DNA from: Frigoribacterium sp. VKM Ac-2836
GTDB lineage: Bacteria; Actinomycetota; Actinomycetes; Actinomycetales; Microbacteriaceae
Reading direction: 5' to 3'
Length of the DNA: 64,000 bases
Assembly (NCBI RefSeq): GCF_013248995.1
Contig: NZ_JABRPK010000006.1
Location: 62,001-126,000 of the forward strand
The position numbers and the translations under genes are program-made. Each line of letters starts with the position of its first letter. The stretch's first letter is position 1. Positions 7,879 to 14,501 of this stretch are shown piece by piece. The notes under the pieces are model-generated. The model saw only the letters and a program-made list of their open reading frames with translations, searched no databases and was not told the DNA's origin.

Positions 7879-8448
7879 TCACGTGGGCCAGGCGGCCAGC
7901 TGCCAGCCCAACCAGGGCGAGAAGGCGAAGGGGGCGGCCGCGACGGCGTCGCGGAGCTCGCCGGGCTCGACCCACGCCCACTCGGCGACCTCGTCGGGTG
8001 AGGGATCGGGCAGGCCGACGGCGCGGGCCGTGAACACCGGGCAGATCTCGTTCTCGACCACGCCCGAGGCGTCGGTGGCCAGGTAGCGGAACTCGGGCAG
8101 GATCACCTCGACGTCACGCACCTCCATGCCGAGCTCTTGGTGGGCGCGCCGCATCAGCGCCTCGGCCGGAGTCTCGCCGGGGGCGGGGTGGCCGCAGAAC
8201 GAGTTCGTCCAGACGCCGGGCCAGGTCTTCTTGCTCAGCGCGCGGCGGGTGACGAGGACGCGGCCGAGGTCGTCGGTGACGTGGCAGCTGAAGGCCAGAT
8301 GCAACGGCGTCGTGGCGGTGTGCACCGTCGCCTTCGCCGTGGTGCCGACGGGCGTGCCCTGGTCGTCGAGCAGCACCACGAGCTCGTCGTGCGTGCCCGC
8401 CCGGTCACCGGGCGTCGGCTGGGGATGCGTCGGGGTCTCTCGGGTCAT
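7879..8448 (-). CDS. idi: Isopentenyl-diphosphate delta-isomerase, type I
   Basis: A 189-residue Nudix-fold isomerase that converts IPP to DMAPP, supplying crtE. The catalytic cysteine lies in TNSFCGHPAPGE. The metal-binding glutamates are in the Nudix-like stretch EALMRRAHQELGM and in VVENEICPVF. Length is normal for type I Idi. ATG 8448 is fixed by a CAGACT -10 box 7 nt upstream, which overlaps the crtE -10 box on the other strand. It is divergent from the carotenoid operon and must be co-regulated with it at least sterically. Confidence 0.93.
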   Translation of the reverse strand: MTRETPTHPQPTPGDRAGTHDELVVLLDDQGTPVGTTAKATVHTATTPLHLAFSCHVTDDLGRVLVTRRALSKKTWPGVWTNSFCGHPAPGETPAEALMRRAHQELGMEVRDVEVILPEFRYLATDASGVVENEICPVFTARAVGLPDPSPDEVAEWAWVEPGELRDAVAAAPFAFSPWLGWQLAAWPT

Positions 8449-8454
8449 GAGAGG

Positions 8455-8461
8455 TAGTCTG
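8455..8461. promoter_or_regulatory. Overlapping divergent -10 boxes for idi and crtE
   Basis: Plus strand TAGTCT (8455-8460) is 6 nt before crtE GTG 8467. Minus strand CAGACT (8456-8461) is 7 nt before idi ATG 8448. Both transcripts would be leaderless, and only 18 bp separate the two start codons, so polymerase cannot sit on both promoters at once. Neither side has a good -35 element. Confidence 0.55.
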
Positions 8462-8466
8462 CCCTG

Positions 8467-9537
8467 GTGGACAGTGATCACCTGCACGCAGGCACGCGGG
8501 CGAGACACGATCGTGTCGACGCCGTCCTCGACGACTTCTTCGCGATGGCCAAGCGCCGCGCCGAATCGGTGGGCTGGCGTTACGTCGACCTCTGGTCGGT
8601 TCTCGAGCGGAACAGCGCCGGCGGAAAACGGTTCCGGCCCCGCATGGTCTTCACGGTCTACGACGCCCTCGGGGGTGCCGACGACGAGGCGGTCGCCCGT
8701 GTCGGCGCGGCCTTCGAGCTGCTGCACACCGCCTTGATCGTCCACGACGACGTGATCGACCGCGACTTCTCGAGACGCGGAATCCCCAACGTGTCGGGCA
8801 GTTACCGCGACACGGCGACGACGGCGGGCATCCCGACCCCCGCGGCCGAACACCGGGGCATGTCGGCCGCCGTCATCGCCGGCGACCTGGCCCTGACCGG
8901 TGCCAGCCGCATGCTGCTCGGCATCGGCTGCGCCCATCACGTCCGCACCCGCCTGCTCGATCTGCTCGACGAGGCGATCTTCGTCAGCGCGGGCGGCGAG
9001 ATGGTCGACGTCGAGTTCTCGTTGGCCGCCGAACTCCCGACGGTGGACGAGATCCTCGAGATGGAGCGTGCCAAGACGGCCGTCTACTCCTTCGAGGCGC
9101 CGCTGCAGGCGGGCGCCGTCCTGGCGGAGGCGAGCGAGGCCGTCGTCACGGCCGTCGGCGACTTCGGTCGCGAGGTCGGCGTCGCCTACCAGGTGGTCGA
9201 CGACCTGCTCGGGGTCTTCGGCACCGAAGAGGCCACCGGCAAGACCACGAGGGGCGACCTGCGCGAGGGCAAGCGCACGGTGCTCGTCGCCCACGCCGCG
9301 ACCACCGACGAGTGGTTCTCGATCCAGCCCTTCATCGGCAAGGCCGACCTCAGCGAGGCCGAGGCCGAACACGTCCGCGGACGTCTCGAGGCCAGCGGTG
9401 CCCGTGCCTTCGCCGAGGGACTCGTCGAAGAGCACGCCCGCCGGGCGCTGGACGTGCTCGACCGCGACGAGGTGCCCGAGGCCCTGCGAGAGGCGCTGAC
9501 GCCGGTCGTGCAGGACGTCCTCGAGAGGGTGCGATGA
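8467..9537 (+). CDS. crtE: Geranylgeranyl diphosphate synthase
   Basis: A 356-residue trans-polyprenyl synthase that makes the C20 precursor of the carotenoids. The first aspartate-rich motif is DDVIDRD (near residue 95). The second region, [12 protein letters not shown], has a DDLLG form often seen in actinobacterial Crt[10 protein letters not shown] near residue 55 binds the diphosphate. The GTG start at 8467 is set by the leaderless promoter. It heads the operon crtE-crtB-crtI-crtYe-crtYf-crtEb, in which every junction overlaps by 1 or 4 bp. Confidence 0.93.
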
Positions 9538-10415
9538 CTGGTCTGTCGCTGTACGACTCCGTGGCGGACGCGACCGCGGGCGGCGTGATCCGCCACTATT
9601 CGACGTCGTTCGGCCTGGCCTCGCGCCTCCTCGGCGGTGGGGTGCGCCAGCACGTCGAGAACGTCTACGCGCTCGTGCGCGTCGCCGACGAGATCGTCGA
9701 CGGCCCCGCGACCGAGGCCGGTCTGGGTGCCGAGGCGGCGGGCCGGCTGCTCGACGGCTTCGAGGCCGAGACCGAGCGAGCCCTGGTCGAGGGGTTCAGC
9801 CCCAACCTCGTCGTGCACGCGTTCGCCCGCACGGCCCGCTCCACCGGTTTCGGCGCCGAGCTCACCGCCCCCTTCTTCGCCTCGATGCGGGCCGATCTGC
9901 GTGCCCGCGAGCACGACCAGGCCTCGTTCGACGCGTACGTGTACGGCTCGGCCGAGGTCGTCGGCCTGATGTGCCTGAAGGCGTTCCTGCAGGGGCACGC
10001 CTTCCCGCCGAGCACGGTCGCCGAGCTCGAAGAGGGTGCCCGGCGCCTGGGCGCGGCGTTCCAGAAGGTGAACTTCCTGAGAGACCTGGCAGCCGACTTC
10101 GAGCAGCTCGGCCGCAGCTACTTCCCCGGGGTCGACGTGACCACGTTCGACGAGCAGACCAAGACGAGACTGGTGCGAGACATCGACGACGACCTCCGCG
10201 TGAGCGGCGAGATCATCCCCGTGCTGCCGACGAGTTCCCGTCGGGCGGTGGCGCTGGCCCACGGCCTGTTCGCCGAGCTGAACCGACGTCTCGAGGCGAC
10301 CCCCGCCTCCTCGCTGGTCCGGGCGCGCGTGCGCGTACCGAACCCGGTCAAGTTGCGCATCGCGGCGGGTGCCGCCGCCGGTCGCGTCACGCGACTGCCC
10401 GAGGCCCGCGCATGA
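9534..10415 (+). CDS. crtB: Phytoene synthase
   Basis: A 293-residue squalene/phytoene synthase that joins two GGPP molecules head to head. The two aspartate-rich motifs are RVADEIVDG (near residue 49) and [19 protein letters not shown] (near residue 181). The length is family-typical. ATG 9534 overlaps the crtE stop (ATGA) and the stop overlaps the crtI ATG in the same way. Confidence 0.93.
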
Positions 10416-12145
10416 GCGGCGCATCGGCCGGTCGGGGTGCCACCGGTGCCGGCACGGGCGCGTCCGACACGTCGCACGGTCTGAGCGTCACCCGGCACGG
10501 CCGCCGCGTCGTCGTGATCGGTGGCGGCATCAGCGGCCTGGCATCGGCCGCACTGCTCGCCCGAGAGGGGCACGAGGTCACGCTCCTCGAGAAGAACGAC
10601 GAGGTGGGTGGCCGCGCCGGCTCCTGGAGCCACGAGGGTTTCCGCTTCGACCTCGGTCCGAGCTGGTACCTCATGCCCGAGGTCTTCGACCACTTCTTCC
10701 GGCTGATGGGCACGTCGGCGGCCGAGCGCCTCGACCTCGTCGAGCTCGACCCGGGTTACCGGGTGCTCTTCGAGCCGACGCCCGACGACCCCGCGGCCAG
10801 CGCGCCGATCGACGTGCCGCGCGGGCTCGAGCAGAACGTCGAACTCTTCGACCGGGTAGAGCCCGGCAGCGGCGAACGCATGCGCCGGTACCTGCGGTCG
10901 GCCCGCGACACCTACGAGATCGCCAAGCGGCGGTTCCTCTACACGAGCTTCGGCAGCCTCACGCCGCTGCTGAGGGGTGACGTGCTGGTGCGCCTGCCCA
11001 AGCTGGCGCGGCTCTTGCTGACGAGCCTCGACTCGTACGCGTCCCGCACGGTCACCGACCCGCGCCTCCGTCAGATCCTCGGGTATCCCGCCGTGTTCCT
11101 CGGTTCGTCCCCCTTCGACACCCCGAGCATGTACCACTTGATGAGCACGCTCGACCTCGACGACGGGGTCCTCTACCCGCAGGGCGGGCTGATCTCGGTG
11201 ATCGAGGCGATCCGCGACGTGGCCGTCGAGGCCGGGGTGACCATCGTGACGGGTGCCACCGTGACGCGCATCGTCACCCAGCCCCTCGGAGCCGAGGGAG
11301 CCGCCCTGCCTCGGGGGTCGAAGGCGACCGCCGAAGCGACCGGGGTCGACTGGGCGGATGCCGCGGGTGACGAGCACCGCGCCGACGCCGACCTCGTGGT
11401 GAGCGCCGCCGACCTGCACCACACCGAGACGCGACTGCTGCCCCGCGAGCTGCGGACGTACGACGAGACGTACTGGGCGAAGAAGAACCCCGGGCCGAGC
11501 GCCCTGCTGATGTACCTGGGCGTCGAAGGAGAGATCCCCGAGCTCGAGCACCACACCCTGCTCTTCGCCCGGGACTGGCACGAGAACTTCGAGCGGATCT
11601 TCGGTGCCGACAAGCGCATCCCCGACCCGCCGTCGCTCTACGTCTGCAAGCCGAGCACGGTCGACCCCTCGACGGCTCCGGCCGGTCACACGAACCTCTT
11701 CGTCCTGGTGCCGCTGCCCGCCGACCCGGCGCTCGGCTCCGGCGACCTCGACGGGGACGGCGATCCGATGATCGAGCGTCTCGCCGACGGTGTCATCGCC
11801 CAGATCGCCGAGTGGGCGAAGGTGCCCGACCTCGCCTCGCGGGTGGTGGTCCGACGCACCCGCGGCCCTCGTGACTTCGTCGACGACGTCAACGCCTGGA
11901 GCGGCAGCATGCTCGGCCCCGCGCACACGCTCGCCCAGAGCGCCCTGTTCCGCACGGGCAACGTCTCGACGCGCGTCGATTCGCTGTTCTACGCGGGCGG
12001 TTCGGTCCGCCCGGGCATCGGTCTGCCGATGTGCCTGATCAGCGCCGAAGTGCTGCTGAAGAACCTGCGAGGCGACACGAGCACCGAGCCGCTGCCCGAG
12101 CCGTCGACGACCGAACCGTCGCCCGCCGAGTCCGCCGCCGACTGA
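10412..12145 (+). CDS. crtI: Phytoene desaturase
   Basis: A 577-residue FAD-dependent CrtI desaturase that converts phytoene to lycopene. The dinucleotide-binding fold is [20 protein letters not shown], near residue 32. The family C-terminal signature is [17 protein letters not shown], near residue 528. A short Gly/Ser/Ala-rich N-terminal tail of about 30 residues precedes the flavin fold and is longer than usual. A Pro/Glu/Ser-rich tail ends the protein. It sits third in the C50-carotenoid operon. Confidence 0.93.
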
Positions 12146-12504
12146 TGGGCTTCGTCTACCTCGCGGCGTTGCTCGTGTCGCTCCTCGGCATGGTCGTCCT
12201 CGACCGGCGGTTCACTCTCTTCTTCTGGCGCGACGTGCCCCGGGCAGCGGTGACGCTGCTGGTCGGCGTCGGCTTCTTCTTGATCTGGGACATCGTCGGC
12301 ATCGACCTCGGCATCTTCTTCCGGGGCGAGACCTCGTTCATGACCGGAGTCCTCGTGGCGCCCGAGCTGCCGCTCGAAGAGGTCTTCTTCCTGACCCTGC
12401 TGTGCTACCTGACCATGAACCTGCTGGCCGGGACCCGCATCCTCGCGGCGACGGTGCTCGACCGTCGCGCCCCAGGGGTCCCGGCGGACGGTGCACGGTC
12501 GTGA
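12145..12504 (+). CDS. crtYe: C50 carotenoid cyclase, subunit e
   Basis: A 119-residue membrane protein with three hydrophobic helices and the lycopene-cyclase-domain phrases DIVGIDLGIFFRG and PELPLEEVFFLTLLCY. In Corynebacterium and relatives, CrtYe and CrtYf form a heterodimer that closes the ends of the C50 chain. ATG 12145 shares one base with the crtI stop (TGATG). The e versus f assignment rests on gene order and on the LEEVFF motif. Confidence 0.88.
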   Translation: MGFVYLAALLVSLLGMVVLDRRFTLFFWRDVPRAAVTLLVGVGFFLIWDIVGIDLGIFFRGETSFMTGVLVAPELPLEEVFFLTLLCYLTMNLLAGTRILAATVLDRRAPGVPADGARS

Positions 12505-12908
12505 CCTACTGGGCCGTCAACGCGGTCTTCCTGGCGATCGTCGCCGTGGTCGGCCTGCTGGCGCTGGTGACCGCAGCGGTGCGCGGGCGAGCCGTACGCG
12601 CCTCCTCGTCCCCGGCCCTGACGTCGCGGCGGCGTCGCGAGCGTCTGCTGGGGGCCGGTCTCGCGACCGGGGTGCTGCTCGTGATGACCGCGGTGTTCGA
12701 CAACGTCATGATCGGCATCGGACTGGTCGGGTACGACGCCACCCGGATCAGCGGCGTCTTCGTCGGCATCGCCCCGCTCGAGGACTTCGCCTACGCCGTC
12801 GCGGCGCTCGTGCTGCTGCCGTCGGTGTGGGTGCTGCTCGGCGGTCCGAAGACGCCCCGGGTGCCCGTGACTCGGGCGGCCGCGACAGCCGAGGAGGCGC
12901 GCTCGTGA
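12501..12908 (+). CDS. crtYf: C50 carotenoid cyclase, subunit f
   Basis: A 135-residue partner of CrtYe with hydrophobic segments near residues 5-25, 50-68 and 95-112 and the conserved stretch YDATRISGVFVGIAPLEDFAY. The cytoplasmic loop RAVRASSSPALTSRRRRER and the C-terminal AEEARS tail are both encoded over AGGAGGCGCG words (12597 and 12892). GTG 12501 overlaps the crtYe stop. Together with CrtEb it would give a decaprenoxanthin- or sarcinaxanthin-like bicyclic pigment. Confidence 0.87.
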   Translation: MTYWAVNAVFLAIVAVVGLLALVTAAVRGRAVRASSSPALTSRRRRERLLGAGLATGVLLVMTAVFDNVMIGIGLVGYDATRISGVFVGIAPLEDFAYAVAALVLLPSVWVLLGGPKTPRVPVTRAAATAEEARS

Positions 12909-13789
12909 CCACGGTCAAGGCCCTGTTCGTCTCGTCCCGGCCCCTGAGCTGGATCAACACGGCGTTCCCGTTCGCCGCGGCGTACGTGCTGACGTCGCTG
13001 CTCGGCGGCGGCGGTGGCGTGGACTGGACCGTCCTCGTCGTCGGCGCCCTGTACTTCCTCGTCCCGTACAACCTCGCGATGTACGGCATCAACGACGTCT
13101 TCGACTACGAGAGCGACCTGCACAACCCGCGCAAGGGCGGCGTCGAGGGGGCGCTGCTCGACCGGAGCCTGCACCGCACGACGTTGCGTGCCGCGGTGAT
13201 CACGAACCTGCCCTTCCTGGTGTTCCTCGTGATGGTCGGAGGCCCCGCCAGTTGGCTCGTCCTGGCCGTCAGCGTCTTCGCCGTCATCGCCTACTCGGCC
13301 CCCGGGCTGCGCTTCAAGGAGCGCCCGTTCGTCGACTCCGTCACCTCGAGCACCCACTTCGTCAGCCCGGCCGTCTACGGGCTCGTGTTGGCCGGGGCGG
13401 CGTTCACACCCGAACTGTGGGCGCTGCTCGGCGCGTTCTTCCTCTGGGGCGTCGCGAGTCACGCGTTCGGCGCCGTGCAGGACGTGCTGGCCGACCGCGA
13501 GGGCGGCATCTCGTCGATCGCGACCGGGATCGGTGCCCGCGCCACGGTGCGCCTCTCGGTGGTCGCGTACCTGCTGGCCGGCGTGCTGCTGACCTTCACC
13601 GAATGGCCGGGCCCCCTCGCGGCCCTCTTGACGTTGCCCTACGCGATCAGCTGCGCACCGTGGTGGAACGTGACCGACGACCGGGCAGAAGAGGTCAACC
13701 GCGGTTGGCGTCGCTTCCTGGCGCTCAACTTCGTCAGTGGGTTCGTCGTGACGATGCTGATGATCTGGTGGGTGTTCCTGCGGGGCTGA
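12905..13789 (+). CDS. crtEb: Lycopene elongase (UbiA-type prenyltransferase)
   Basis: A 294-residue UbiA-family membrane prenyltransferase. In C50 pathways CrtEb adds two dimethylallyl units to lycopene to give flavuxanthin-type C50 chains. The first Asp-rich motif is NDVFDYESD (near residue 62) and the second DVLADREGG (near residue 195). There are about eight or nine hydrophobic segments. GTG 12905 overlaps the crtYf stop. It is the last gene of the operon and is followed by a hairpin. Confidence 0.92.
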   Translation: MTTVKALFVSSRPLSWINTAFPFAAAYVLTSLLGGGGGVDWTVLVVGALYFLVPYNLAMYGINDVFDYESDLHNPRKGGVEGALLDRSLHRTTLRAAVITNLPFLVFLVMVGGPASWLVLAVSVFAVIAYSAPGLRFKERPFVDSVTSSTHFVSPAVYGLVLAGAAFTPELWALLGAFFLWGVASHAFGAVQDVLADREGGISSIATGIGARATVRLSVVAYLLAGVLLTFTEWPGPLAALLTLPYAISCAPWWNVTDDRAEEVNRGWRRFLALNFVSGFVVTMLMIWWVFLRG

Positions 13790-13840: not shown

Positions 13841-14410
13841 TCAGAGCCCGTCGGCCCGGTCGGCCCGGTCCGTCGGGTCGGGTCGCCAGCCGAGGTTGAC
13901 CGCCACCGTGCGGAGGAACCGCACGGTGGTCGCGTGGGCACCCGGCTCGGCCCCCTGGACGGCCTCGTCACGGATGCCCTCGACGACGTCGACCAGCTTG
14001 TGGTGTGCGAGGCCTCCGCGCTCGGTGAGGGTGTAGCGGCCACCACCGACTCCGTCGGTCGCGAGGCTCACCCAGCCGCTCTCGACCAGTTCGGCCAGGT
14101 GGTCGGCGCTCGACTCGCCCGTGCTCGGGTCGAGGAAGGGCGCGACGGCACCGTCGAGGGCGGCGCGCGTCGCCGGGCCGCGGTCGAGCAGGGCGAGCAG
14201 CTGCCACTGGCGGCGGGTGACCCCGTGCTCGTCGAGCACCTCGTCGAAGCGCCGGTCGATCAACCCGTCGACGAGCGTCAGCCAGAAGCCGATCGGGCGT
14301 CCCCGGCCCACGGCCAGGTCGTCGTCGACGCTGCCGAGGTCGAAGGGTGCGGGTGTGTCGTCGGCCGGCGGGGTGACCTCGCCTCCGTCTGCGGAACGTC
14401 GTCGGTCCAT
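13841..14410 (-). CDS. MarR-family transcriptional regulator (CrtR-like candidate)
   Basis: A 189-residue protein with a winged helix-turn-helix region at about residues 60-130 (VTRRQWQLLALLDRGPATRA, then the wing GVGGGRYTLTERG). This layout fits MarR-type repressors. In Corynebacterium a MarR-type CrtR represses the crt operon; here the gene lies at the opposite, convergent end of the crt operon, so a role in pigment control is an inference from position. Start ATG 14410 is fixed by a TACGGT -10 box 7 nt upstream. Confidence 0.75.
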   Translation of the reverse strand: MDRRRSADGGEVTPPADDTPAPFDLGSVDDDLAVGRGRPIGFWLTLVDGLIDRRFDEVLDEHGVTRRQWQLLALLDRGPATRAALDGAVAPFLDPSTGESSADHLAELVESGWVSLATDGVGGGRYTLTERGGLAHHKLVDVVEGIRDEAVQGAEPGAHATTVRFLRTVAVNLGWRPDPTDRADRADGL

Positions 14411-14417
14411 GGACGGC

Positions 14418-14423
14418 ACCGTA
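14418..14423 (-). promoter_or_regulatory. Leaderless -10 box of the MarR gene
   Basis: TACGGT on the minus strand, 7 nt before ATG 14410. Confidence 0.5.
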
Positions 14424-14501
14424 CACCGCGCGGACCTCCGCCTCGAGAGGGATCTTCCGATGGATTCACCTGCCCGAAAGCCAACGGCAAGGCCGCGGCC
14501 T

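Follow-up and report, generated by a model that had tools for sequence, protein, structure and literature searches.

The divergent idi–crtE junction of Frigoribacterium as a probable bidirectional promoter of two leaderless or near-leaderless messages

The founding paper of the bidirectional promoter class is said to be that of Warman et al. 2021. Bidirectional promoters have been recognized recently and are called "hardly studied" in the available part of PMC12825309. In Escherichia coli and Salmonella, according to the accessible text of two papers, these two-way promoters share a −10 element whose −11A and −7T are reciprocally paired, have an optimal distance of 18 bp between transcription start sites (10 and 23 bp being also common), and often lie between divergent genes of linked function (PMC12825309, PMC10268837). 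A divergent carotenoid promoter region has likewise been described for crtR–crtE of Corynebacterium glutamicum; the available portions of three papers report a crtE −10 element that fits TANNNT, a leaderless crtR, one regulator over both −10 regions, and a 52-bp CrtR footprint with a TTAA-centered CrtR site (PMC5401885, PMC6739363, PMC7432914). In the same excerpts, the CrtR motif spans 15–19 bp (PMC7432914; the TTAA center also in PMC5401885). The lysG/lysE pair of Mycobacterium tuberculosis is another divergent actinobacterial pair with overlapping promoters and, in the excerpted source, one transcript called leaderless (P2-lysE), but its gap is 108 bp and carries the regulator's inverted repeat in the middle (PMC5648196). 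A literature search that covered few subscription papers returned none on the junction described here or on back-to-back leaderless bidirectional promoters in actinobacteria.

We analyzed the gap between the divergent genes idi and crtE in a window of Frigoribacterium sp. VKM Ac-2836, the window being the whole 64,000-nucleotide stretch of DNA under study (Table 1). By layout, this junction is best read as belonging with the bidirectional promoters of the Warman/Grainger class. A8456 and T8460 occupy −11 and −7 for both directions, the predicted transcription starts (8448 and 8467) would lie 19 apart, where the class has divergent starts 7–25 bp apart, and the flanking genes are linked in function. 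The word "leaderless" is absent from the available text of PMC12825309 and PMC10268837, whereas the idi and crtE start codons lie at the predicted transcription starts; the E. coli and Salmonella promoters are two-way, whereas two-way activity of idi/crtE is a prediction. Unlike the longer C. glutamicum region, where crtR faces crtE, the gap here has idi opposite crtE, contains no TTAA-centered CrtR site, and leaves the MarR-like gene at the other end of the operon. To the known class, the junction would add a pair of products that are both predicted to be leaderless, a span of only 24 bp for the start codons of both genes and the promoter core, and the occurrence of one gene pair in shared and separate forms across the family.

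Table 1. Features of the idi–crtE junction and the surrounding carotenoid cluster (window coordinates)
Feature	Position	Strand	Basis
idi, isopentenyl-diphosphate delta-isomerase	7880..8448	−	NCBIfam NF002995 259.7 bits (cut-off 127), TIGR02150 151.7 bits (cut-off 105.8), Pfam NUDIX
idi start codon ATG	8446..8448	−	direct reading; A8448 = predicted transcription start, from box 7 nt away
Shared pseudo-symmetric core GGTAGTCTGCC (11 bp)	8453–8463		present in 9/9 Frigoribacterium loci compared
crtE −10 box TAGTCT	8455–8460	+	direct reading; TANNNT near crtE starts in relatives
idi −10 box CAGACT	8461–8456	−	direct reading; inside GGCAGACT 8463–8456
crtE start codon GTG	8467..8469	+	direct reading; G8467 = predicted transcription start, from box 6 nt away
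crtE, polyprenyl (GGPP-type) diphosphate synthase, first crt operon gene	8467..9537	+	Pfam PF00348 169.2 bits
Remaining crt operon: crtB, crtI, two lycopene cyclase-domain genes, UbiA-type elongase	9534..13789	+	Pfam / NCBIfam
MarR-like gene, far end of cluster	13841..14410	−	Pfam MarR_2 E 0.007, under cut-off

The assignment of idi is firm, with both NCBIfam models above their cut-offs. The name crtE comes from operon context, as no NCBIfam equivalog cut-off was reached; the protein is 97% identical to CrtE of Frigoribacterium sp. PhB24 (Microbacteriaceae). Similarly, crtB was named by Pfam SQS_PSY, with scores under the NCBIfam cut-offs. The MarR-like gene also matched another Pfam family at 0.0011, again under the cut-off, and gave no NCBIfam match and no convincing solved-structure relative (best E 0.52). 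At a gap of 7 nt from its ATG at 14410, this gene has its own leaderless-type box, TACGGT (window 14408–14430), which is kept in L001–L004 and nearly so in L153 (TACGAT).

The start codons are separated by GAGAGGTAGTCTGCCCTG (8449–8466), the 18 bp claimed by an earlier sequence-only reading of this DNA; from first base to first base the distance is 19. That reading had also placed overlapping −10 boxes here, and direct inspection confirms TAGTCT rightwards and CAGACT leftwards within 8455–8461. Its figure of 7 bp shared holds for the union of the two hexamers and not for their overlap, which is 5 bp (8456–8460). Regarding the −35 regions, which had been called weak, a sigma-70 scan of 8000–9000 found none and is little informative because chance expectation there is also none. 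Among 55 compact relatives (delimited below), genus-weighted conservation stays under 0.6 in every column between −57 and −15 on either side. We consider it probable that the 18-bp gap is one bidirectional promoter, with a shared pseudo-symmetric −10 element and two leaderless or near-leaderless mRNAs.

Leaderless starts were assessed in 228 genes from 264 kb of the host genome (the window plus 200 kb), delineated with a simple home-made caller. TANNNT occurred 17 times at 6 nt and 13 times at 7 nt before candidate starts, as against 0–3 times at every other gap from 0 to 20. [CG]ANNNT, the form that the idi box CAGACT resembles, also peaked at 6 and 7 nt (21 and 19), more weakly (1–16 at other gaps), and the mirrored control TNNNAT peaked at no gap. 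Given the enrichment of TANNNT at 6–7 nt with no peak in the control, the host genome appears to use leaderless starts. Both junction boxes sit at this spacing, 6 nt from crtE and 7 nt from idi. No Shine–Dalgarno (SD) site lies upstream of idi in the host sequence, and crtE has only a GAGAGG 12 nt from its start, which is not conserved in Frondihabitans (L010–L012). The earlier proposals of a shared −10 element and of leaderless starts are supported by comparative sequence evidence.

The idea that the host genome holds a whole class of such junctions was rejected, as only 1 of 38 sampled divergent pairs had both boxes with starts 10–30 bp apart. In the 3.27-Mb genome there are two copies of the exact layout (CAT-N6-TANNNT-N6-RTG), the second having a 56-codon frame on one side. 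Matches for N5, N6, and N8, the spacings searched, numbered five, of which only idi/crtE resembles a real gene pair; L176 and L177, in which both frames are long, were set aside by eye. Backwards controls gave 0, 1, and 1 matches for N6, N8, and N5, respectively. When both frames had to be open for more than 100 codons, the architecture pattern matched once, and because its mirror control also matched once, the layout pattern alone is not evidence. A strongly symmetric sequence elsewhere in the host genome, CATGGGGGTATATTCCCCCGATG (L178, C3:120803–120825), has the exact 18-bp layout and a 12-codon frame on one side.

Conservation was examined in 110 family genomes (L021–L130) chosen among the best matches listed for the 256 that had a crtE match out of 398 searched. 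The choice took the top 30 and then 80 roughly by score, with some listed ones skipped and less similar ones left out. We counted 107 of these, excluding L101 and L128 (no idi found in the stretch) and L111 (no box found). Idi starts were placed by hand in L075, L086, L088, L125, and L130 (in L086 also the crtE start) and are ambiguous in L074 and L048. A first set, L001–L019 (L020 was dropped), partly overlaps L021–L050 and belongs to the 127 junction loci but not to the 107. With crtE starts chosen for such a box, TANNNT lies 5–8 nt before the candidate start in 124 of the 127 junction loci; under the same choice, 106 of the 107 resolved relatives have a gap of 6 or 7 nt.

The distance from idi to crtE, first base to first base, falls into discrete classes. 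It is 16 in one relative and 18–23 in 55 (19 genera), the latter centering on one TANNNT; a middle class spans 35–55 (28 relatives, 8 genera) and a wide class 73–162 (23 relatives, 5 genera), making 51 at 35 or more, and no relative among the 107 falls at 24–34 or 56–72. Within the compact class, genus g82 has exactly 18, Frondihabitans (g5) has 20, and other genera reach 23, with the spacing from core to idi start drifting between 5 and 10 nt. Among 56 compact junctions, a single one (L048, with its doubtful start) has an SD core 4–11 nt before idi; the core was found in 16 of 28 middle junctions and in 2 of 23 wide ones, a class in which idi is partly leaderless from its own box. A midpoint-rooted Idi tree with 107 rows accounts for the compact label with three changes. 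Of the 51 non-compact rows, 50 fall in one 51-row group together with a single compact row, L074 (ambiguous start), and the remaining one, L069, falls among compact rows. The compact arrangement is therefore old within the family, be it an acquired or an ancestral state.

Taken as a bidirectional promoter, the junction would have two A:T pairs that act as −11 and −7 for polymerases of either orientation, through TAGTCT rightwards and CAGACT leftwards. Each polymerase would start at, or within about one base of, a start codon, leaving both mRNAs leaderless. If crtE transcription begins at 8467, C8449 would be its canonical partner at a distance of 18 bp, and the neighboring A8448 would be 19 bp away; in compact relatives (18–23), idi mRNAs initiated at the canonical point would have a leader of about 0–5 nt. 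The empty 24–34 range would correspond to idi leaders of about 6–16 nt, presumably too short for a good SD site, and the 35–38 class to leaders of 17–20 nt, with an SD site in part. A common core of melted DNA and one state of accessibility may co-ordinate the supply of DMAPP (Idi) and GGPP (CrtE). Because no −35 element is conserved on either side, the promoter is expected to be weak, which makes parallel co-expression likelier than a seesaw. As one polymerase would fit at a time, competition would arise only if the site became busy. We therefore favor parallel expression from the shared site, in which activation could bring about competition.

Alternatively, only crtE may use the box, CAGACT being a by-product of TANNNT symmetry and idi being transcribed by read-through or, with a leader, from a promoter located within crtE. 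TANNNTN always reads NANNNTA on the opposite strand, and the crtE −10 element thereby gives idi its A at −11 and T at −7 for free. The same symmetry underlies the described bidirectional promoters, as the available parts of PMC10268837 and PMC12825309 explain. Because it makes a second box partly automatic, separate evidence for that box was needed. Moreover, the idi box has C instead of T at −12, and the idi start is a predicted one. Against a crtE-only box, a separate idi box ([TCG]ANNNT, 6 nt before the ATG) is present in 12 of 23 wide junctions, comprising 8/8 of g77, 3/3 of g3, and the one of g43. This box is GGCANNNT in five of the eight g77 loci, for example GGCAGACT in L073, identical to the shared-box string. 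It is absent from the other 11 wide junctions (nine g45 and two g8), a point in favor of use by crtE only, and present in 7 of 28 middle junctions (2 genera). With no SD core in 55 of 56 compact junctions, a leadered idi message would lack the usual ribosome site. A further argument comes from the GC directly after the crtE hexamer (idi −12 and −13), which occurs in 40 of 55 compact junctions (14/19 genera) and in none of the 28 middle or 23 wide ones, although many genera owe their GCC to common descent, which makes the genus counts interdependent; the 23-bp compact junctions of g84 and g76 lack it. In host [CG]ANNNT leaderless boxes, C is favored at −12 (30/40 vs 57/128 at other gaps, p 0.001) and G at −14 (25/40 vs 51/128, p 0.017), with G at −13 not clearly favored (17/40 vs 34/128, p 0.08). 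The idea that GCC at −6 to −4 of crtE is purely idi-specific was weakened because C at −4 is frequent in host TANNNT leaderless genes anyway (16/30 vs 1/11 in the control); the rare C at −5 (2/30 TANNNT genes including crtE; 1/11 control) is suggestive only. Finally, the 20 idi loci from genomes without a crtE match count on both sides: only five of them (L162, L163, L166, L170, and L172) have a box at 6–7 nt from a plausible start, but the TAGTCTGCC core of L170 has outlasted the crtE start codon, none being left where that gene began. Exclusive use of the box by crtE is accordingly unlikely in our estimation.

A second alternative, in line with the earlier reading, is an antagonistic promoter, at which use by one gene would repress the other and polymerase competition would balance IPP isomerisation against GGPP synthesis. 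That the two polymerase sites cannot be occupied together, as proposed earlier, follows from geometry and is stated for the class; in the accessible text of the same paper, activating one direction of E. coli bidirectional promoters tended to repress the other, competition appearing at that point, but at basal activity transcription of all five tested promoters was too low for competition (PMC12825309). The lack of a conserved −35 column on either side of idi/crtE also speaks against antagonism. Idi and GGPP synthase act in one pathway, for which co-expression is expected and not a seesaw. We find antagonism improbable, and the earlier claim that competition links the two genes holds as a possibility upon activation, not as the default. 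It is less probable still that the 11-bp core serves mainly as an operator for a MarR-type or other repressor of the shared promoter. The core is near-palindromic, a MarR-like gene lies within 10 kb of the listed crtE in at least 17 of the 35 genomes that have one, and Corynebacterium CrtR sits over the −10 region of each divergent gene (PMC6739363, excerpt). The conserved stretch, however, is shorter than the 16–20 bp usual for a MarR site in that excerpt (PMC6739363), and TTAA, the center of the CrtR motif, is absent from 8350–8560. Palindromic covariation around the core was not clearly seen, the complementarity of paired columns −10/−8, −13/−5, and −14/−4 being 0.73, 0.56, and 0.56 versus 0.74, 0.43, and 0.60 in shuffles. 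Furthermore, the same 18 junction bases occur in L005, where no marR-like gene was found.

Relatives of the MarR-like gene were found in 35 of 150 genomes, and its proximity to crtE in at least 17 of these makes a role in the cluster plausible. Among L001–L019, it was found in four loci (L001–L004) and not in L005–L019, nor at 1e-8 in genomes G035 and G004. The earlier suggestion of MarR regulation thus retains its linkage to the cluster but has no site at the junction. A palindrome at the crtE start of relatives, GGTGATCACC, was rejected as an operator: it is common in the window (13 occurrences with at most one mismatch vs 2.8 expected, perhaps a codon-usage effect of GTG ATC ACC) and is not kept in L006–L009.

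A conserved near-palindrome between idi and crtE, AGTCAGCCGACTGACT-like in g77 (L065, L068, L073, L076, L079, L080, L092, and L119) and CTCAGCCGGCTTA-like in g45 (L041, L056, L059–L063, L066, and L067), occurs in all 17 wide junctions of these two genera. The pattern is seen in 0/6 other wide, 0/56 compact, and 1/28 middle junctions. It is a candidate operator, for which the compact form would have no room. In two genomes, G127 (C1:584438–585400) and G044 (C86:24940–25993), a MarR-like gene lies directly upstream of idi in the same direction, with no crtE match there. In L160, L165, L169, and L172, inspection by eye showed a short remnant frame after the shared promoter, followed by a crtB-like frame, with the box and close idi start retained. 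These four loci look like cases of crtE loss from within the operon, and their genomes would need another GGPP synthase if carotenoids are still made.

At the idi–crtE junction, leaderless translation and a shared −10 element would come together within a very short divergent gap. Across relatives, the same gene pair provides dozens of natural variants with shared or separate promoters, which could be used to test, within one pathway, how sharing affects the level, ratio, and noise of expression. A practical use may lie in balancing Idi against GGPP synthase in carotenoid production. Tentatively, we suggest that this may be an old, selected two-way promoter in Microbacteriaceae, in which one symmetric −10 element sets both the transcription and the leaderless translation starts, and that evolution may shift among three states: a core shared by starts 18–23 bp apart, a shared core at 35 bp or more whose idi leader bears an SD site, and one promoter for each gene, with space left for an operator. 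If this possibility is true, the family would offer a natural series for learning when genes gain by sharing one polymerase site.
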